Part shown: piece by piece, positions 38,041 to 51,706 of the stretch
Layout: every line of letters begins with the position of its first letter
Position numbering within the stretch: position 1 is the first letter of the stretch
NCBI RefSeq assembly: GCF_042453785.1
Contig: NC_091664.1
Coordinates: 611,001-675,000 of the forward strand
DNA: 64,000 nt
Source: Malus domestica
Taxonomy: Eukaryota > Streptophyta > Magnoliopsida > Rosales > Rosaceae
Direction: 5' to 3'
Made by a program: the position numbers and the translations under genes
The notes under the pieces: model-generated
What the model saw: only the letters and a program-made list of their open reading frames with translations
What the model was told of the DNA's origin: nothing
Database searches by the model: none

Positions 38041-39336
38041 TTTTTTTTTTTCCTTCTTTTTCTTCTTCCTTCTTCTGGGGTTCGGTTCTTTTTTTTATTT
38101 TTATTCTTTTTCTTCTTCCTCCTCCTCCTTCTTCCTCTGGGTTGCAGGGGTTGGGGTTGGGGTTGGGTTTGGGAGGGGGGGGAGGGGGACGAACTGGGTC
38201 CTTTTTTTTTTTCTTCTTCTTCTTTTTCTTCCTCCGAATTTGGGTTGTAGATTCGGTTTTTTTTTCCCTTCTTCCTCCTTCTTCTTCTTCTTCTTCTTCT
38301 TCTTCTTTTTCAGATTCAGTTTTTTTTTTCTTCTCCTTCCTTCTCCTTCCTTCTTCTTCCTTCCCCTTCTTCTTCTTCCTCCGAATCTGGGTTGCATATT
38401 CGGTTTTTTTTCTTCTTCTTCCTCCGAATCTGCAACTTTTTTTGTTTTTTCTTCTTCCTCCTTCTCCTTCTTCCTTCCTCCTTCTTCCTTCTCATTCTTC
38501 TCCTTCTTCCTCCTTCTTCCTTCTTCTTCCTTTTTTTTTCTTTTTCCTCCTTCTTCCTCCTTCTTCCTTCTCCTTCCTCCTTCTTCCTTATCCTTCCTCC
38601 TTCTTCTTTTTTCCTTCCTCTTATTCTTATTCTTCTTCTTCCTCCGAATCTGGGTTGCAGACCTAGATTCGGTTTTTTTTTCTTTTTTTTTTCTTTTTCT
38701 TCTTCCTCCTTCTTCTTCCTCCTTCTTCTTCTTCTTCTTCTTCTTCTTCTTCTTCTTCTTCTTCTTCTTCTTCTTCTTCTTCTTCTTCTTCTTCTTCTTC
38801 TTCTTCTTCTTCTTCTTCTTCTTCTTCTTCTTCTTCTTCTTCTTCTTCTTCTTCTTCTTCTTCTTCTTCTTCTTCTTCTTCTTCTTCTTCTTCCTCCGAA
38901 TCTGCAACTTTTTTTTTCTTCTTCCTCATTCTTCTCCTTCTTCCTTCCCCTTCTTCCTTCTTCTTCCTTCTCATTCTTCTTCTTCTTCTTCTTCCTTCGA
39001 ATTCCGAATCTGCAACTTTTTTTTTCTTCTTCCTCTTTCTTCTCCTTATTCCTTCCTCCTTCTTCCTTCCCCTTCTTCCTTCTTCCCCTTCTTCCTTCTT
39101 ATTCCTTCTCTTATTCTTCTTATTCTTCTTCCTTCGAATCTGGGGAAAATGTTGGTTTTTTTTTTTTTCTTCTTCTTCTTTCGAATATGTTCCTTCTCTT
39201 TCTTCTTCTTCCTTCGAATCTGAGGAAGATGTCAGTTTTTTTTTTCTTCTTCCTCCTGCTTCCTTCTCCTTCCTCCCTTCTTCCTTCTTCTTCTTCTTCT
39301 TCTTCTTCCTTCTCTTCTTCTTCCTCCTTATCTCCT
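38041..39336. repeat. Pyrimidine tract with a pure (TTC)n core, block 1
   Basis: About 1.3 kb of almost pure C/T on the plus strand. It includes roughly 170 bases of perfect TTC/GAA repeat (about 38723-38893). Irregular CTTCCTCC repeats surround the core, with recurring islands of a ccgaatctg(gg) word. The long Phe, Leu, Ser, Lys or Glu open frames here are by-products of the repeat. Confidence 0.95.
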
Positions 39337-39598
39337 TTCAACCCTTTAAGCGAAATGTGGCAAAAGAAAGAAAAATCCATGGACTAACCCCATCGTCTCC
39401 ACCCCGTAGGAACTACGAAATCACCCCAAGGAAGCTTTCGGCATCCAGGGGTCGTGGACCGACCGTAGAACCCTGTTCAATAAGTGGACCGCATTAGCTG
39501 TCCGCTTTCAGGTTGGGTAGTAAGGGTCGAAGAATGGCAATCACTCATTCTTAAAACCAGCATTCTTAAAACCAAAGAGTCGGGTGGAAAAGCCTTCT
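39337..39598. other. Plastid-DNA-like segment (NUPT) inside the MULE
   Basis: About 260 bases of balanced composition contrast sharply with the C/T tracts on both sides. Words such as ccaaggaagctttcggcatc, gaccgaccgtagaaccctg and ttcaataagtggaccgcatt match, as I recall it, the spacer/leader DNA linked to the rRNA operon in the chloroplast inverted repeat. It carries several changes from the plastid form, so it is not recent. The exact plastid locus needs an alignment. Confidence 0.6.
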
Positions 39599-40378
39599 TC
39601 CTTCTTCCTTCTTCTTCATTCTTCCTCCTTCTTCTTCTTCTTCTTCTTCTTCTTCTTCTTCTTCTTCTTCTTCTTCTTCTTCTTCTTCTTCTTCTTCTTC
39701 TTCTTCTTCTTCTTCTTCTTCTTCTTCTTCTTCTTCTTCTTCTTCTTCTTCTTCTTCTTCTTCTTCTTCTTCTTCTTCTTCTTCTTCTTCTTCTTCTTCT
39801 TCTTCTTCTTCTTCTTCTTCTTCTTCTTCTTCTTCCTTCGAATCTGGGGAAGATGTCGGTTTTCTTCTTCTTCTTCTTCCGAATCTATTCCTTCTCCTTC
39901 TTCTTCTTCTTTCAAATCTGGGGAAGATGTCAGTTTTTTTTTTCTTCTTCCTCCTTCTTCCTTCTCCTTCCTCCTTCTTCCTTCCTCTTCTTCTTCTTCT
40001 TCTTCTTCCTTCGAATATGGGGAAGATGTCGGTTTTTTTTTCTTCTTCATCCTTCTCCTTCTTCCTTCCTCATTCTTCCTTCCACTTCTTCTCCTTCTTC
40101 TTCTTCTTCCTTCGAATCTGGGGAAGATGTCGGTTTTCTTCTTCTTCCGAATCTATTCCTTCTCCTTCTTCTTCTTCTTTCAAATCTGGGGAAGATGTCA
40201 GTTTTTTTTTTCTTCTTCCTCCTTCTTCCTTCTCATTCCTCCTTCTTCCTTCCTCTTCTTCTTCTTCTTCTTCTTCCTTCGAATATGGGGAAGATGTCGG
40301 TTTTTTTTTCTTCTTCATCCTTCTCCTTCTTCCTTCCTCATTCTTCCTTCCACTTCTTCTCCTTTTTCTTCCTCTCGG
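39599..40378. repeat. Pyrimidine tract with a pure (TTC)n core, block 2
   Basis: About 207 bases of perfect TTC/GAA (about 39628-39834) are followed by a minisatellite. Its islands of gaatctggggaagatgtcgg recur within C/T-rich spacer. A section of about 270 bases is tandemly duplicated (about 39833-40097 and 40108-40363). Confidence 0.95.
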
Positions 40379-42486: not shown

Positions 42487-43466
42487 TGTGAACACGGAAA
42501 ATTCCTGAAACGAAAGAGACAAGAACGAACGTGCACAAACAAATATTTGTATTTGATGATTTTGGGTTACAATCTCTCTCTATTTTGATCCTCTGATTCG
42601 ATCTCCGTAAGGTGTTGATTTGTGGGATGTGCGATTGATCCAAGGGCCGTCGAGGCTTGATCTTGGATGAACGAGGATGAACGGATCTTCGAGGGCTTTT
42701 GAGCTTGATCTTGAAGAATGGTGATTGACGGATCTTCAAGGGCTTTTGGGCTTGATCTTGAAGAACAGTGATGAACGGATTTCCGAGGGCTTTTGGGCTT
42801 GAACTCGAAGAACAGTGACGAACGGATCTTCGAGAGCTTTTGGGCTTGAACGGATCTTCGAGGGCTTTTGGGCTTGATCTCGAAGAATAGTGATGAACGA
42901 TGAACGCTTTCTTCAAGGGTCGTCGGGGCTTGGGCTTGATGAACAGCGAATGAGCGGATTTGTTGATGTTGTCGATCCAAAGGGGCCGTTGGGGCTTGAT
43001 CCTTGAGGATGAACAGTTGATGAACGATGAACGCTTTCTTCAAGAGGCCGTTGAGGCTTGGGCTTGAAGGTGGATGATTGTTGATCCAAGGGCCGTCGGG
43101 CTTGATCTTGGAAGAACGATGAACGAAGAACGCTTTCTTGATTCTTCGGGAACCTGGATGCTTGAGAGCTTCGGAGTTTCAGAGCTTCAGAGCTTCAAGA
43201 GTTTTTGCCTAATGATTTTTTTGGTCCCTTAAATGAATGAAATGGGCTTGTATTTATAGAATTTTCCAATGCCTAATTTTGAATATAATATCCCAGATGA
43301 AATAAGTCGTTTCTGCCAGGTGTTGACACGTGTCCTATTTGATGATTTTTCCAACTCATTTCAATTTTCGTTGAGTCACACGCTACGTGTAAAATTTATG
43401 TAATACATGAGCGTTGACACTTTGATTTATCGGTCAATATTTATTTACGAAATTTCGATGTCTACA
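42487..43466 (-). repeat. 3' LTR
   Basis: 980 bases, nearly identical to 50727-51706. It contains a minisatellite of about 50-60 bases built on ttcgagggcttttgggcttg. A polypurine tract (GAAGTGGGGGCATT on the minus strand) abuts its inner edge at 43467-43480. Confidence 0.9.
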
Positions 43467-43539
43467 AATGCCCCCACTTCAAGGCACGTCGTATACATGT
43501 GCTTGTCACGTGTAGGAGATGCGTTTTGAAGTCCCTTAC

Positions 43540-44220
43540 TGTAGATGTCGATCCAAGGGCCGTCGAGGCTTGATCTTGAATTGGGCTGGAGATTTCTTCA
43601 AGGGCCGTTGAGGCTTGATCTTGAATTGGGCTTGAGATTTCTTCAAGGGCCGTCGGGGCTTGATCTTGGATTGGTGTTTGAAATTTCTTCAAGGGCCGTC
43701 GAGGCTTGATCTTGAAGGTTGAAATTGGACCACAAGGAGCTTCATGTGGTAAATGATCTTTGGCTTTGGTAGTGGGTGAATCGACACGTATTTTGTTGCG
43801 CTTTGTTGACTTTCCACAGCTTTGATCTTGAACTGGGTTGAAGGATCTTCTGGATTCCTCCAATTGTTGATTTTCCACAGCTTATTCTTGAACTAGGTTT
43901 TGATTCAAGGGTGGTAGACACTTAATCTTGAATCGGACTTGTGATTTCCTCAAGGGCCGTCGAGGCTTGATCTTGAATTTGGTTGGAAACTTCTTCAAGG
44001 GCCGTTAGGGCTTGATCCTTGAAGGTTGACTTGAACACATGACAAGCAGGCACGAGGTGAAGGTGACGACTTGTTGCTCTGTTCAATCTTTCTAATTCAC
44101 ACCTGAGCAGTTTGGTCAACGGTATGATCTTCAAGATTGATGGGCTTTTCTTCCAGTTGGTGACTTGATCTTTAAGGATTTGATTCAAGGGTGGTGAATC
44201 GGCACGTGCAGCCTACAACG
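43540..44220. repeat. Internal minisatellite related to the LTR repeat
   Basis: The word caagggccgtcgaggcttgat and variants recur about eight times with spacings of 55-75 bases. The same motif occurs inside both LTRs, so LTR and internal DNA share one repeat family. Confidence 0.8.
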
Positions 44221-44329
44221 CCTAGTAAGTCGACCCAAGAATTTGAGGGTCAAAACGAATTCACCGTCAGAGTGATTGCAATTTTGATGATATGAGATAC
44301 TCTTGCTTTTGAAGAAGTAGCGGATGAAT

Positions 44330-44660
44330 CGGCACGTGCTTGGTTGCACTTGTCTCCACATGCTTCAAGGTATCATCTTCATTTCCTTTATCTGTTCCTC
44401 AGGCAGATGTGGCATCTTCTCGAGTTCTTCATCTCAGACTCTTTCCGCCGAGTTGACTGAGCATGCTGCATTCTTCTCTGCTTGTTTCTTCAGGCAGATA
44501 TGGCAGCTTCTCGAGTTCTTCAGCTCGGACTCCTTCTCCTGAGTTGACTGTGCAGACTGCATTCTTCTCTGCTTGTTCCTTCTGCACCTTGTCTCCACAT
44601 GCTGCAAGGTATCATTTTCACTTGCCTTATCTGTTCTCCAGGCAGATGGGGCAACTTCTT
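44330..44660. repeat. Tandem repeat of about 100 bases in the LTR element
   Basis: Two to three imperfect copies carry aggcagatgtggcatcttct, gagttgactg and cattcttctctgcttg. Confidence 0.6.
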
Positions 44661-45144
44661 TGGAAGTACAGCAGCAGTGGGAAACGAGTACTCGAGAGCA
44701 GTGCTAGGTAGGCAATCAGGGAAGGGTTCCAAGCAGTCGGTTCCTTACCCGAGTTTGAGTGGAAGTTCCGGCATATTGTTTTCTTTATCCTTGTCTTTGT
44801 AGGTAAGAACAAGGACAAAGGAAAGGACAGGGAGAACGCATGATATGAGATACTCTTGCTTTCTACCCTGGTGATATGAGATACTTTTGCTTTGGAGTCA
44901 TTGGCTTGCAGAGGTACCCCAAGGAATAAGGAACACTGAATGACTCGAGAGGTTTCGTTGGGAAAGCATTTTTGGAGATGAAGAAAGGCTCTGTATGTCT
45001 GCCTTGCTATGGAAGGTGAAGGTGGACAGTTATAGGAGGTCCCTTAATACCTGTAGAGGTATTATTCTTTCACTCGTGTCGGCAACTAACGCGTGATTGA
45101 ACAGTAAACTTCACGTGCTTTCTCCTTCACTGAAAATCTTTTGA

Positions 45145-45410
45145 CAAATTGCCCGTGATTTGCGCAAAGTTGAGTGTGCATATGACAGGTGATGACGCGG
45201 CTGAAAAAGACTGGCGCCTCTTCGATATCTGGGATCGGCGCTTCGACAAATTACCCGTGATTTCCGCAAAGCTGAGTTTGTGCGTGACGGGTGCTGACGA
45301 GGCTGAAAAAGACTAGCGCCTCTTCGATATCTGGGATTGGCGCTTTAACAAATTGCCCGTGATTTCCGCAAAGCTGAGTTTGCATGTGACGGGTGCTAAC
45401 GCGTCTGGAA
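45145..45410. repeat. Tandem repeat of about 105 bases in the LTR element
   Basis: About two and a half copies carry gtgatttccgcaaagctgag, gacgggtgctgac and gcgcctcttcgatatctggg. Confidence 0.7.
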
Positions 45411-45629
45411 AAGCAAGATGCTTCTCCGATTTCTAAGCTTGCCTCTTCGATTTTTGAATCGGCATTTTCGAACTCTGAGCTCACCTCTTCGATCTCTGAA
45501 ATGCCGTCGAGTGTTGATTTTATAGAGGCACGCAGTTCGTTTCAAAGCACACTTCGCTTGTGAAAACTCCCCTCTTGTACTTCTAAGATCTTGATTTGTC
45601 CGATCTCTTCTTCCTTCAACACTTTGAAA

Positions 45630-46298
45630 ATGTCTGGACCCTCCGACCGTCGTTTTGACTTGAATCTTGGTGAAGAGTCAGTCCCGCCTTCTCCAGACAA
45701 CATATGGCGCCCATCCTTCATATCCCCTACTGGTCCTCTTACCGTTGGGGATTCGGTGATGAAAAATGATATGACCGCTGCGGTGGTGGCCCGGAACCTT
45801 GTCACTCCCAGAGATAACAAACTACTTTCCAAACGGTCTGATGAGTTGGCTGTTAAGAATTCTCTGGCTCTCAGTGTGCAGTGTGCAGGTTCTGTGTCTA
45901 ATATGGCCCAACGCCTATTTGCTCGAACCCGTCAAGTTGAATCGTTGGCGGCTGAAGTGATGAGTCTCAAACAGGAGATTAGGGGGCTCAAGCATGAGAA
46001 TAAACAGTTGCACAAGCTCGCACACAACTATGCCACAAACATGAAGAGGAAAATTGACCAGATGCAGGAATCTGATGGTCAGATTTTACTTGATCATCGG
46101 AGGTTTGTGGGTTTGTTCCAACAACATTTGCCTTCGTCTTCTGGGGCTGTACCGTGTAGTGAAGCTTCGAATGATCAACCTTTGGCTCCTCTACTTCCTG
46201 GAGTTCCGCCGAGTGGTGAGGCTTCAAACAGTCAACCTCCAGCGCCTCTCATTTCTGGAGCTCTGCCGAGTGGTGAGGCGGCACATGATCGTCCTTGA
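45630..46298 (+). CDS. Antisense ORF (aORF) of the LTR element
   Basis: Encodes 222 residues on the strand opposite to gag, between the captured fragments and the 3' LTR. It is intact. The start MSGPSDRRFDLNLGEE contains an EAR-like DLNL core. A middle basic helix (SLKQEIRGLKHENKQLHKLA) predicts a coiled coil. The tail repeats a module of about 20 residues (SGALPSGEA...QPPAPL) three times. I recall this protein type as common in Rosaceae retroelements. Antisense ORFs at this place are known in Tat-lineage elements such as Grande. A leader with a TATA-like word at 45519-45524 (ttatag) precedes it. Function is unknown. A tail fragment of a second copy is at 52028-52078. Confidence 0.65.
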   Translation: MSGPSDRRFDLNLGEESVPPSPDNIWRPSFISPTGPLTVGDSVMKNDMTAAVVARNLVTPRDNKLLSKRSDELAVKNSLALSVQCAGSVSNMAQRLFARTRQVESLAAEVMSLKQEIRGLKHENKQLHKLAHNYATNMKRKIDQMQESDGQILLDHRRFVGLFQQHLPSSSGAVPCSEASNDQPLAPLLPGVPPSGEASNSQPPAPLISGALPSGEAAHDRP

Positions 46299-46440
46299 AG
46301 ATCCCCTCTTGTAAATTTGATTTGATTTGATTTTTTTTTTCTTCTTAAGGTATGTAAAATTTCCAGAAAAAATAAATAAAATGGACTTTTATTTCTCTTA
46401 ATGCTTTTTTTTATTTTTTTATTTTTTATTTTTTATGCAC

Positions 46441-46626
46441 GTGGTGCCAGATGCACCATCCATTTATATTTTCCTTTCTTTTCCTTTTTTTTATTTTTTT
46501 TATTTGCACATGGTGCCAGAGCACCAAAAGATAAAACTTTTTTTTTTTTCCTTTGATCATGGTGCCAGACGCACCAAAGATCAAACATTTATATTTTTTG
46601 CCTTTAATCACGTGGTGCCAGCACCA
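46441..46626. repeat. Four spaced short hairpins TGGTGC...GCACCA
   Basis: Near-palindromes at about 46441-46459, 46511-46526, 46559-46576 and 46611-46626 each have TGGTGC, a loop of about four bases (caga type), and GCACCA. They are separated by T-rich spacers. Confidence 0.75.
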
Positions 46627-46974
46627 CTTTGCTCCACTATGTTGTTTTTTTTATTTTTTTTATTATATATATATTTATATAAATTCTGGTGATGGGATGA
46701 AGAACTTGCAGGAAGGACGAAGACGGAGAGGGCTGTAGAGTGACGAGCTCGAGGGAGGCCAGGCGCTGCGGTAGAAGGAGTCGATGCCGAGAGCGCAGCC
46801 CAACTTGCTCCGGGTGTGCGCACCATGTGCAGCAGGTCGGGTTTGAGTGGAGTGAGGACGGAGGATACAAGTTGGCGTGGAGGCCTTGTGCGCTCAGATG
46901 TGTAGCTGCTGAGCTGCAGTTGCGTCGCAGGGGAAGATAAGGGCAGACGAGAGAAGACGAGATCAGGCTGCGGT

Positions 46975-47453
46975 GAGATGATTGGACTGGTGGAGGCCGA
47001 ACCGGCTCAGGTTTCTTCTCGATCCGAACAGGCGCCTCCCTCCTTGAAACCCTCTCGGGCTCAACATGGTTCCAGGAACTCGCCTGCAATTCCTCATCAG
47101 AACCCTTTTTCGGACCGGAATTCATCTCCGTGTTTGTCAATCAGAGGCTGAAACAACTCCTCAAACCTCGAACGAAGCTGATTGGCATAATTATACACCT
47201 CGTGGCCTTGGGGATTGTACCGCATGGCCTTCTCGAAAGTCAATCGTACATCAGCTGAGAAATCAGAAGGCGTTGAGGTCGTTGCTGGCGAGAATGGCGG
47301 AGGTGGACTGGTGGTGTCGGTGATAAATAGCATCATGGTGGGCCTGGCTTTAGGGCTTTCGGGGCCTGAAACGAGCTGCGGTTCTTGAGGCGGCCGAAGA
47401 TGGATGTTCTGAAAACGCCATGGCATGACCTCGAGAATGAAATCTAGCAGTGG
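46975..47453 (-). pseudogene. Captured bromodomain protein fragment (GTE2/GTE7-like)
   Basis: The minus-strand reading [20 protein letters not shown] matches the last helices of plant GTE-type BET bromodomains. RFEELFQPL follows, and further on the linker ELQASSWNHVEPERV and EKKPEPVRPPPVQ typical of GTE proteins. Only this part of the gene is present. It lies inside the LTR element, in the element's sense orientation, and follows the SAHH fragment in frame. GTE proteins read acetylated histones. This piece lacks most of the acetyl-lysine pocket and would not work as a reader. Confidence 0.65.
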
Positions 47454-47903
47454 ATCAACCATGATGATGTCCTTGTTACCGGCGGTGGTAACAAAGATAT
47501 CGGCCTCAGAGACAACATCTTCAAGGGGAAGAACCTGAAGGCTTTCCATAAGAGCCTGGAGGGCACAGATTGGATCAATCTCAGTCACAACCACGCGAGA
47601 TCCAGCTTGCTTGAGGGCAGCAGCACAACCCTTTCCGACATCTCCGTATCCACAGACAACTGAAACCTTTCCGGCAATCATAACATCAGTGGCTCTCATC
47701 AAACCATCGGGGAGAGAGTGACGGCATCCGTACAAGTTGTCAAACTTGCTCTTGGTAACAGAGTTGTTGACATTGATGGCGGGGAACAAGAGAGCGTCGC
47801 TGGCCTGCATCTGATACAATCTCTTGACGCCGGTGGTGGTCTCCTCCGAGACTCCGACCAACCTGTCCTTCATCTTGTGGTACCTCTTGGGGTCGGTTTT
47901 CAA
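47454..47903 (-). pseudogene. Captured S-adenosylhomocysteine hydrolase fragment
   Basis: About 150 residues of SAHH, the enzyme that removes the methylation by-product SAH. The reading [40 protein letters not shown], the NAD-binding [31 protein letters not shown] and [14 protein letters not shown] matches the centre of the plant enzyme (roughly residues 230-350). The N- and C-terminal thirds are absent. The piece stands within the LTR element in sense orientation and runs in frame into the bromodomain fragment. Together they form a 268-codon open frame (47903-47097). Confidence 0.9.
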
Positions 47904-48130
47904 GAAATCTGGATAAATGGTATGTAATCGAAAGATGGAGGACTCTCATCACTGTCTACTTTATTGACTGCGCGAATAGGCGTCTTCTCTTTCCCTTGAG
48001 AGATGTCGTTACAAAGGATAGGAGTAGCAGGCCTCACAAATCCAGGCCCAATAAAAGGATTTGTCCTGATTGCTGCACCGACTGGATTTAGGACTGATTT
48101 CATCCATTTCGGCTTGGGGACGACATTTAA
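47896..48130 (-). pseudogene. Captured fragment resembling SUVH-type histone methyltransferase (pre-SET start)
   Basis: The reading CNDISQGKEKTPIRAVNKVD then PPSFDYIPF follows the pattern DISxGxExxPIxxVNxVDxxxPPxFxYI that opens the pre-SET domain of plant SUVH/SUVR H3K9 methyltransferases. About 45 residues before it (NVVPKPKWMKSVLNPVG) are unassigned. The fragment ends where the SAHH piece begins. It is too short to be catalytic. Confidence 0.5.
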
Positions 48131-48152
48131 AATAGAGAGATACCCCACTTTG

Positions 48153-48220
<68 letters not shown>

Positions 48221-48242
48221 GTGTAAATACATAAAACATGTA

Positions 48243-48272
<30 letters not shown>
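48153..48272. repeat. (AT)n-(AC)n-(AT)n-poly(T) microsatellite cluster
   Basis: Compound dinucleotide repeats and two long T runs lie between the captured fragments and the gag-side repeats. Confidence 0.9.
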
Positions 48273-48273
<1 letters not shown>

Positions 48274-48454
48274 GTATAAAGAAATTGTAATAGCATCAAA
48301 ACTTTTAATTAAATCTTTATTCCTTATTTTGGTGTGACTGAACTCAAATTTTGAATATTTGAGTTGCCTACGTACCCTTCCAAAGAAAGAGATCAAGTCA
48401 AAACGTAGTTCAAATACATTTTTTTTTTTTGGTATTTTCTTTTTGTACCGTTTG

Positions 48455-48700
48455 CAGTTTTAACTCATGCAGGCAAGGAGTGTTGGTTTCGTTTGCAGTT
48501 TCAACTCGTGCAGACAAGGAGCATTTGGTGTCGTGTTGCAGTTTCAGCTCGTGCAGACAAGGAGCATTTGGTGCCGTTTTGCAATTTCAGCTCGTGCAGG
48601 CAAGGAGCTTTGGGTTGTTGCCTTTTAGGCTCGTGCAGACCAGGAGCTTTGTGCCATGCAGTTTAGACTCGTGCGGGCGAGGAGAATTTTGTGAATTTTG
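48455..48700. repeat. Tandem repeat of about 50 bases, six copies
   Basis: Copies share gcagtttcagctcgtgcaga and caaggagc with spacers of 20-25 bases. They lie just 3' of gag in element sense. Confidence 0.85.
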
Positions 48701-50651
48701 TCAAGCAATTTTGGAGAGGCGTTCCTCACAATTTTCATAGCAAGGAGCTTTGACCGCGTGATTGAAAAAATCTTCGGGCAAGAAGTCGCGCATCGTGATG
48801 GCAACGGACGATCTATGTGTCGAAATGTCATCATCTTCAACACGTTCACGTTGCTTTGAAGGTTGACAAGAGCTGCTTTGCCCCCTTTCCGATTGGCGGA
48901 CTTGTGGAGGAGACGTATGCTTCTTGTGCAATTTCTTAGGAGTGACTTGAGTCCATCCTTCAATTTTGCTTGTCTTGGACGATGCCCCCAGCGGTTGAGG
49001 TGAAAACTTTGAGTCGGAAGAGCCAGAAGTGAAGGTGGTATAGTTTGACTTCGCCACTTCGTCAAGATCTAGCTCGATGATTCCTTTCTGAGCCAGTTTC
49101 ATGATGAGATCTTTCAGCACGAAACATTTTTCTGTCGGATGACTGATGAAGCGGTGGAATTTACAGTATCTTGGACTGCCAGTACGATTTATCTCTTCTG
49201 GCCGTCTGCACTCAGGCAAGCCGATCACCTTCTTTTCCAGCAAGTCTTCTAACATGGCAACCACATCAGAGTCGGGGAATGGATAAGTTTTCTCCTCGAG
49301 CTCCTTCAAAGTGCGTCTACGCATCTCTTGATCACGAAAGCCTTCGGCTTGAATCGCCTTGCCTCGTGTGGAGATTTTGACAGGAGATGTGTTGACCGTC
49401 ATCGCTTCCTTGGTGGGTTTCCATGCAGCCTTTTCCACCTTTGTCTCAAGAACTTTGTCATTCTTGTAGTTGGCGATTGGTTCCTTCTTCCCATGATGGG
49501 CGATCAACTCCATGTCATGGGCGCGAGTGGCTAATTCCTCGAAGGTCCGTGGTTTAATGCCTTGAAGGATGTATTGCAAACCCCATTGCATGCCTTGGAT
49601 GCACATCTCGATTGAAGAGGTTTCCGAGAGCCTGTCTTTACAGTCGAGGCTTAGAGTGCGCCATCTGTTGATGTAGTCAATGACTGGCTCGTCCTTCCAC
49701 TGCTTTGTGCTCGTTAGCTCTAGCATGCTCACAGTGCGGCGGGTGCTATAGAAGCGGTTGAGGAATTCCCGCTCTAATTGTTCCCAGCTGTTGATGGACT
49801 CAGGCTCTAGGTCTGTGTACCACTCAAAGGCGTTTCCTTTCAGCGAGCGCACAAACTGCTTGGCGAGGTAATCCCCTTCGGTTCCTGCGTTGTTGCAAGT
49901 TTCAACGAAGTGGGCAACGTGCTATTTCGGGTTTCCCTTTCCATCAAATTGCATGAACTTTGGTGGTTGATAACCCCTCGGCATCCTTAAGGCGTCGATC
50001 TTCTTTGAATACGGCTTTGAGTACAACCCGGAGGTATTTGAGCTCCCTTCGTACTGTGCCTTGATGGTGTTGGTGATCATCTCTTGCAGCTGCTGGATAG
50101 AAAGAGATCCCATGAGTGCCGCTGCTTGGTCTGGCTCCGGCTTCGCATCGTTTTTCTCCACCTGAGGCTCTTCGTCTCCGCCAGCTCCTCCTTTTAGTGG
50201 ATCATCCTCTGGGTCGGGTTTATCGCCGTCCTGCGCCTCCAGTCGGTTGACTAGTGCTGCAATTTGCAAGTCTTTTTCTTCCACAGTTTGGGTTAGCCTT
50301 GCGATTGCTTCATTCATTTGAGCCAGCTGCTCATCGATTGAAGTTGCTCCAATGGTCATGACTTGCATGGCTGAACTGTCGCTTGAATCGGCATCAGAGA
50401 GCATGGATTCGGAGTATTTCCTTGGGCTTTCCCCCCTTGGTACCCTTAGTGAGGCTAAGGTGATCAAAGGCTCGTGCCTTGGGTGCTTTTGTTCCTTTGG
50501 CAGAGTTGATGCAGAGGTGAAAGAGGCGGCAAAAGTAGCTCTTGCCATGCTTCGAGTCGTGATGCCCAAAGTGACACCAGTTGCGACGAGGACGCTTTTG
50601 TTCTTTGCGCCGGTTACGGGAACAGTTTGAGCCTTCCTTGATGCCATTAAT
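48701..50651 (-). pseudogene. gag region of the LTR element
   Basis: The N-terminal part starts MASRKAQTVPVTGAKN and includes a coiled coil (QLAQMNEAIARLTQTVEEKD) and an acidic linker. The Retrotrans_gag core follows: GNAFEWYTDLEPESINSWEQ, REFLNRFYS and QGMQWGLQYILQGI. A short CxxH-like motif (CKFHRFISHPTEKC) lies downstream. The order and motifs are those of Ty3/gypsy gag proteins. The region is broken and treated as a fossil. Confidence 0.8.
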
Positions 50652-50699
50652 TTTGGAAGTGCGCTTGAATTTCTTGAACGGAGAAAGAGATGAGAGGCA

Positions 50700-50726
50700 G
50701 AGATTGTCCCACTGGGCGTGCCAATT
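50700..50726 (-). other. Primer-binding region of the LTR element
   Basis: Directly inside the 5' LTR, the minus strand reads TTGGCACGCCCAGTGGGAC, where the tRNA primer site is expected. I could not assign the tRNA. Confidence 0.5.
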
Positions 50727-51706
50727 TGTGAACACGGAAAATTCCTGAAACGAAAGAGACAAGAACGAACGTGCACAAACAAATATTTGTATTTGATGAT
50801 TTTGGGTTACAATCTCTCTCTATTTTGATCCTCTGATTCGATCTCCGTAAGGTGTTGATTTGTGGGATGTGCGATTGATCCAAGGGCCGTCGAGGCTTGA
50901 TCTTGGATAAACGAGGATGAACGGATCTTCGAGGGCTTTTGAGCTTGATCTTGAAGAATGGTGATTGACGGATCTTCAAGGGCTTTTGGGCTTGATCTTG
51001 AAGAACAGTGATGAACGGATTTCCGAGGGCTTTTGGGCTTGAACTCGAAGAACAGTGACGAACGGACCTTCGAGAGCTTTTGGGCTTGAACGGATCTTCG
51101 AGGGCTTTTGGGCTTGATCTCGAAGAATAGTGATGAACGATGAACGCTTTCTTCAAGGGCCGTCGGGGCTTGGGCTTGATGAACAGCGAATGAGCGGATT
51201 TGTTGATGTTGTCGATCCAAAGGGGCCGTTGGGGCTTGATCCTTGAGGATGAACAGTTGATGAACGATGAACGCTTTCTTCAAGAGGCCGTTGAGGCTTG
51301 GGCTTGAAGGTGGATGATTGTTGATCCAAGGGCCGTCGGGCTTGATCTTGGAAGAACGATGAACGAAGAACGCTTTCTTGATTCTTCGGGAACCTGGATG
51401 CTTGAGAGCTTCGGAGTTTCAGAGCTTCAGAGCTTCAAGAGTTTTTGCCTAATGATTTTTTTGGTCCCTTAAATGAATGAAATGGGCTTGTATTTATAGA
51501 ATTTTCCAATGCCTAATTTTGAATATAATATCCCAGATGAAATAAGTCGTTTCTGCCAGGTGTTGACACGTGTCCTATTTGATGATTTTTCCAACTCATT
51601 TCAATTTTCGTTGAGTCACACGCTACGTGTAAAATTTATGTAATACATGAGCGTTGACACTTTGATTTATCGGTCAACATTTATTTACGAAATTTCGATG
51701 TCTACA
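50727..51706 (-). repeat. 5' LTR
   Basis: 980 bases, about four differences from the other LTR. TATAAATA on the minus strand at 51491-51498 is a candidate TATA box of the element. Confidence 0.9.

Follow-up and report, generated by a model that had tools for sequence, protein, structure and literature searches.

Why should a single LTR retrotransposon carry, side by side, fragments of three host genes that all touch methylation or chromatin? This question is raised by an element on the reverse strand of the window, that is, of the whole 64-kb stretch of DNA that was analysed. The first-pass annotation had noticed in it pieces resembling a SUVH-type methyltransferase, SAHH and a GTE bromodomain reader, and had proposed that transcripts or siRNAs from such cargo could touch the genes that silence the element, with chance co-capture as the null explanation. 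We compared the element with its relatives and with host genes in a genome of 651 Mb and 19 contigs (L-numbers below denote loci and C-numbers contigs), and the best account of the SUVH/SAHH/GTE combination is that of a single draw by a family taking up many kinds of host mRNA.

The fragments lie in a complete element with the marks of an LTR retrotransposon, namely an LTR pair, TG...CA ends and a short target site duplication. Its parts are as follows.

42487..51706, reverse strand: complete gag-only LTR element of 9220 bp, with two 980-bp LTRs (TGTGAACA...TGTCTACA) and the target site duplication GAATC on both sides
50727..51706, reverse strand: 5' LTR (element orientation), 4/980 mismatches against the other LTR
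42487..43466, reverse strand: 3' LTR, from comparison of the LTR pair
48701..50806, reverse strand: gag region, a single frame divided by an in-frame stop into ORFs 50806-49922 and 49921-48701 (Retrotrans_gag, 1.4e-14)
48449..48693, no strand: tandem array with a unit of about 43 bp, between gag and cargo (Tandem Repeats Finder)
48150..48273, no strand: A/T-rich and (CA/TA)n tract at the 5' cargo border (limits by eye; scan about 48187-48236)
46636..46690, no strand: A/T-rich tract at the 3' cargo border (sequence and scan)
45630..46298, forward strand: antisense ORF found across the family (dN/dS 0.27-0.59 against 11 copies)

Downstream of gag the layout is thus the 43-bp tandem array, an A/T-rich tract, the cargo, a second A/T-rich tract and the antisense ORF. 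The element is young, as had been annotated: with substitution rates of 1.3e-8 to 4e-9 per site per year assumed for dating, the LTR divergence corresponds to an age of 0.16-0.51 million years. It is also gag-only, since reverse transcriptase, integrase and RNase H families gave no match at E 0.01 in 43 chosen ORFs of the internal region (at least 70 aa), and the presence of a gag domain together with the lack of pol matches places it among non-autonomous elements of the Ty3 type; a Ty3_capsid match in gag scores below the Pfam cut-off. In the part of gag at 48701-49921, dN/dS is 0.12-0.27 against 12 copies, three of them aligned only in part, and several family copies contain gag stops. The antisense ORF has no Pfam family above the cut-off and is interrupted by an in-frame stop in 9 of the 11 copies compared. 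Scans of the 64-kb window for tRNA and Rfam families gave no matches. About 2 kb from the element, CTT-rich repeats form long tandem arrays (38211-40375) whose nested periods range from 3 to 268 bp.

The cargo extends over 46860-48165, possibly from 46803, and is made of at least seven pieces. The three gene fragments that had been annotated are all present, but they are part of a longer mosaic, which along the element reads piece 1, SUVH, SAHH, piece 4, EF-hand-like, GTE, piece 7 and perhaps piece 8.

48031..48165, reverse strand: piece 1, 135 bp, common to L020, L021 and L022 (95-98%) and to other places (81-98%)
47904..48035, reverse strand: piece 2, SUVH fragment from the beginning of the Pre-SET region; donor gene on C7 (L024)
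47455..47904, reverse strand: piece 3, SAHH fragment of two fused exons; donor gene on C4 (L013)
47310..47458, reverse strand: piece 4, no host gene assigned; common to L017, L018, L026 (part) and L009 (part), 89-97%
47264..47316, reverse strand: piece 5, 53 bp, 52/53 against the cargo of L019, where it lies near an EF-hand-like frame
46975..47276, reverse strand: piece 6, GTE bromodomain fragment; donor gene on C5 (L011), 297/302 columns
46860..46981, reverse strand: piece 7, no host gene assigned; common to L023, 113/123 columns
46803..46857, reverse strand: possible piece 8, 55 bp, common to L015/L016, 90.9%
47097..47945, reverse strand: open frame of 282 aa through SAHH, pieces 4-5 and GTE, with SAHH and GTE each in its own frame

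All three gene assignments proved right, and the suggestion that a young LTR element has captured host fragments is now backed by identified donor genes. The SAHH piece is the clearest, with Pfam AdoHcyase_NAD at E 1e-48, PDB entry 3ond at 1.3e-87 and a match to the C4 gene of 97.6% over 292 and 98.1% over 160. For the other two, domain scores stay below the Pfam cut-off and the donors decide: the SUVH piece (Pre-SET remnant, E 0.0062; PDB SUVH6, 3.6e-4) agrees with the C7 gene, a 541-aa frame with SAD_SRA, Pre-SET and SET, at 130/132 aligned bases (142 columns, with gaps of 7 and 3 bases), and the GTE piece (Bromodomain fragment, E 3.7e-4, 20.9 against a cut-off of 21.7 bits) comes from a C5 gene whose protein has Bromodomain and BET. 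All three lie in the sense of gag, as annotated, with 97-98% identity in aligned bases to the host genes. The capture looks recent, since for SAHH and GTE the donors are closer than second gene copies (C13 at 91-95% and C10 at 94%, respectively). The EF-hand match of L019 falls below the cut-off (E 7.1e-4), and in L020, L022 and L030 piece 1 continues into a longer frame without a library match, which we take to be a CCCH/ankyrin gene. GTE-like fragments of 89-92% were also seen in L025, L027 and L028, without family LTR, gag or antisense ORF (8.5-9 kb each); these are possibly other retrocopies.

Does this cargo exist elsewhere? Such a search had been recommended in the first-pass annotation, and it gave a divided answer: L009 and L010 share the cargo in part, but no second place matches SUVH, SAHH and GTE together among the 43 matches listed (best 40 of 63 candidates scored). 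Of the focal pieces, L020-L022 hold piece 1, L010 holds piece 1 and SUVH, L009 holds piece 1, SUVH, SAHH and part of piece 4, and the focal copy has all L009 blocks plus the EF-hand-like and GTE pieces. Judged from these sequences, the series reads as stepwise growth and exchange, in which the piece 1-SUVH block (with L010) and the SUVH-SAHH block (with L009) look like earlier steps, and the EF-hand-like and GTE pieces might be later additions or imports from other copies. The SUVH/SAHH junction is found again in L009, on a different contig, which argues against an assembly artefact, an explanation that we therefore rejected. Cargo also gets copied on with the element, as the 519-bp KCS-type piece recurs in two further copies, L040 (C2) and L043 (C14), together with another piece of 230 bp. 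A 548-bp piece of the KCS gene type (95%) was seen in L041 and L042, where the 2 kb examined contained no element backbone. The zone comparison was made with the 13 of 20 loci that have the full zone; L009, L023, L029, L032, L034, L035 and L036 were dropped for a missing flank.

It might be assumed that the 282-aa frame is a new expressed gene and that the cargo is kept for its protein, as proposed for Bs1. SAHH and GTE do stand in their own frames within one open frame, and at L026:5513-6298 fragments of a KCS-type gene and of a decarboxylase likewise form one open frame. Yet a 1-base insertion shifts the GTE part, the whole cargo is not common to any listed place, and an open frame of this kind is estimated to arise by chance about once in nine cases, so we regard this explanation as very unlikely.

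The chromatin theme itself can be judged against the cargo of other copies. In loci found through the focal cargo (11 loci, ORFs of at least 70 aa, L016 being omitted as a near copy of L015), sense frames contained GH17, DUF4057, KCS-type, P450, kinase, decarboxylase, EF-hand and PP2C families (104 ORFs, two from the window), and antisense frames SAHH only (100 ORFs; five other listed families are matches of the same ORF). The Pfam scan left out L029-L032 and L034-L036, and L033, whose cargo contains Frigida, was scanned in one ORF. Loci found in this way are a biased sample, having been baited with the cargo, and a second set was therefore drawn blind to cargo by a gag search, which gave 1,460 first-look candidate places with the best 40 scored. 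The set consists of 12 copies, ranks 2-13 of the 38 places (focal included) that cover the 2,021-base gag query with at most 12 bases missing, and for each copy a stretch of 2.2 kb starting 300 bases past the query was taken. Pfam gave the following cargos.

L049: LRR kinase with brassinosteroid island
L050: P450 and LRR
L051: Arm
L052: DUF1218, and CDC20/Fizzy below the cut-off
L053: HMG-CoA reductase, another part of the gene being in L058
L054: RRM and PPR
L056: HATPase_c
L057: P450

There are ten cargo architectures among these 12 copies (L057/L059 and L058/L060 are near-identical pairs), and at least nine of the ten contain a Pfam host domain; in L055, no Pfam family was found in five of eight frames tested singly. 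With L059 and L060 omitted from the ORF sets as near copies of L057 and L058, 23 Pfam families were found in sense (89 ORFs) and one in antisense (75 ORFs; at least 65 aa). Throughout, the matches of Bromodomain, Pre-SET, EF-hand, PP2C and CDC20-Fz are below cut-offs. Coverage by other non-sister copies falls from 60-100% ahead of the cargo border to 0-8% beyond it, with a default border at position 450 used for L054 (no tract detected), L055 and L058 (tract starting before the lower limit of the rule). Some sequence is nevertheless common to copies on the cargo side: L051 and L055 have 137 bp of cargo in common, and a stretch of 78% in L049 and L055 crosses the border. The element is a member of a large gag-only family of the Ty3 type, with a cargo slot downstream of gag and between two A/T-rich tracts, and most sampled copies have in this slot a mosaic of their own that includes pieces of host genes. 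P450 fragments were seen in L015, L050 and L057, and the parts of HMG-CoA reductase differ between L053 and L058; some families may have been captured more than once because their mRNA is abundant.

With pieces of other origin in the same cargo and unrelated genes in siblings, the special methylation or chromatin theme does not hold, and a functional version of it was rejected on the ground of the sibling cargos; the null explanation of chance co-capture accounts best for the three-gene combination. One may still ask whether the cargo was selected against silencing, so that SUVH, SAHH and GTE transcripts or siRNAs would lower the host silencing genes and aid the element. Three loosely related genes in one cargo might suggest so, as might the exact 21-base windows that it has in common with the genes (233 with SAHH on C4, 194 with GTE on C5 and 62 with SUVH on C7), although any cargo captured recently should show similar sharing. 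Moreover, SAHH was captured twice independently: L015:3998-4434 and L016:3567-4003 contain a spliced fragment of the C4 gene with other end points, antisense to gag and lacking the same intron as the focal piece. This second capture is, however, a biased count, as it was found by an SAHH search. Against selection there are the unrelated genes of siblings, the absence of a second three-gene place among the matches listed and the nature of the pieces, which measure 53-450 bp and bear no sign of selection (5 nonsynonymous and 5 synonymous substitutions in the SAHH piece, an uninformative ratio). An anti-silencing role of the cargo is unsupported, and we hold it to be extremely unlikely. A transcript of the L015/L016 SAHH fragment would be antisense to SAHH mRNA.

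How, then, do host fragments enter the slot? Donors were found for six fragments in three elements, with about 97-98% likeness in all: SUVH, SAHH and GTE in the focal copy, P450 in L015, and KCS-type and arginine decarboxylase-type genes in L026 (Pfam FAE1_CUT1_RppA/ACP_syn_III_C and Orn_Arg_deC_N, respectively; presumably KCS and ADC by short gene name). Both testable donors were spliced, as GT-AG introns are absent from the SAHH (two captures) and P450 cargo, and in the focal copy the two SAHH exons are fused exactly at the position of the donor's GT-AG intron. At nine junctions in these three elements, 7, 8, 7, 4, 1, 5, 2, 5 and 7 exact bases are shared. The mean is 5.1 against 0.70 in an empirical null of random joins in host-locus sequence, in which none of 1,000,000 sums reached the observed 46 (maximum 28). 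At several of the nine, one donor is another element copy or an unassigned locus and not a host gene. The count of 1 at the SUVH/SAHH junction was read from alignment rows, a later substitution having made the automatic count -6, and the possible border 46857/46860, with 0 shared bases, is outside the nine; when it is counted as 0 with the first six, the result is unchanged. In L026 the jump from the KCS-type to the decarboxylase fragment falls within an 11-bp near-match, over the putative KCS-type stop codon.

Microhomology is a mark of end joining too, and the shared bases at the nine junctions would thus also suit capture at the DNA level, in which genomic fragments are joined by end joining or nested insertion and then amplified. 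But the exact absence of introns from SAHH (two captures) and P450, the strong sense bias and the confinement of variable sequence to one slot are at odds with this, and such an origin seems unlikely. Spliced donors, sense bias, short junction matches and blocks common to copies point instead to template switching between co-packaged RNAs, of which an excess of shared junction bases and spliced donors (SAHH, P450) are predicted results. On the other side, one SAHH capture (L015/L016) and one LRR match are antisense, the resolved junctions are nine in three elements, pieces 1, 4 and 7 are without an assigned host gene, and end joining of DNA or cDNA leaves microhomology as well. On balance, we find it very probable that the mosaics arose by serial jumps of reverse transcriptase between element RNA and packaged host mRNAs within a fixed zone, and that the chromatin theme is due to chance.

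In this scenario of serial jumps, gag particles would package host mRNAs together with element RNA, and reverse transcriptase would be supplied by another element, as pol must presumably come from elsewhere. During first-strand synthesis the enzyme may leave the element RNA where the sequence is of low complexity or matches over a short stretch, copy part of an mRNA, jump again and ultimately return to the element RNA, the A/T-rich tracts being the likely entry points. Serial jumping leads to cargos that grow stepwise and are reshuffled between copies. A further idea, which we put forward tentatively and consider somewhat doubtful, is that of a dedicated capture slot, where the flanking A/T-rich tracts, being poly(A)-like, would help reverse transcriptase to land on host mRNA and where cargo turnover would outpace divergence of the backbone.

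Parts of this picture are familiar. Bs1 of maize has a low copy number and lacks introns. Pack-MULEs and Helitrons retain introns. Like the focal copy, which carries several unrelated host fragments in one element, Bs1 is described as an LTR element that contains parts of three host genes (PMC13317346); it is, however, one element type with one three-gene set, whereas here a large family has its own cargo in most sampled copies. The same source portrays Pack-MULEs and gene-carrying Helitrons as single element kinds with fragments of many host genes (PMC13317346), but these are DNA elements capturing genomic DNA, and the fragments seen here are spliced and mostly sense. Template switching between LTR RNA and mRNA at microsimilarity is also central to LTR-mediated retroposition (Tan et al. 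2016, cited in PMC5408686), for which, in the account cited, several switches are thought possible; the present case differs in that multi-gene mosaics are built serially, within one family and at a fixed slot. Pepper NLR retroduplication likewise places host genes from spliced mRNA in LTR elements, many of them non-autonomous (PMC5664825, PMC3726574), and a single family with a combinatorial slot does not appear in the parts of its descriptions consulted. In layout, the element resembles Retand, Grande and RIRE2, which have a long region with an antisense ORF before the 3' LTR, and tandem arrays in about half of Retand (PMC11963269, PMC7264820), but it lacks pol, and host-fragment cargo is absent from what we consulted of their descriptions. 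An antisense ORF with a TRP28 domain is reported for 97% of Retand clusters (PMC11963269); in our antisense ORF there is no match to TRP28 (PF04195) at E up to 1, and this mark of Retand was set aside. Related literature includes PMC4668562, PMC6445120 and PMC1950507. Among open-licence papers, judged by title and opening of the abstract, none described an LTR family in which a single slot is occupied by distinct multi-gene mosaics, which is weak evidence of absence. The known parts are those of Bs1 and LTR-mediated retroposition, and what seems to set this family apart is the variety of mosaics, each from several genes, at one slot.

A thematic cargo in a single element, be it chromatin or another theme, should accordingly be judged against the cargo of its siblings. 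Should the 12 copies prove representative, this one family would provide many recent and datable multi-gene chimeras with known donors, from which one could directly measure, in a plant, how often an LTR element captures mRNA, by what junction rules, with what donor bias and with what fate. If a dedicated slot is real, it would amount to an RNA-based shuffler of gene fragments on the scale of Pack-MULEs or maize Helitrons, long-lasting within one plant lineage.
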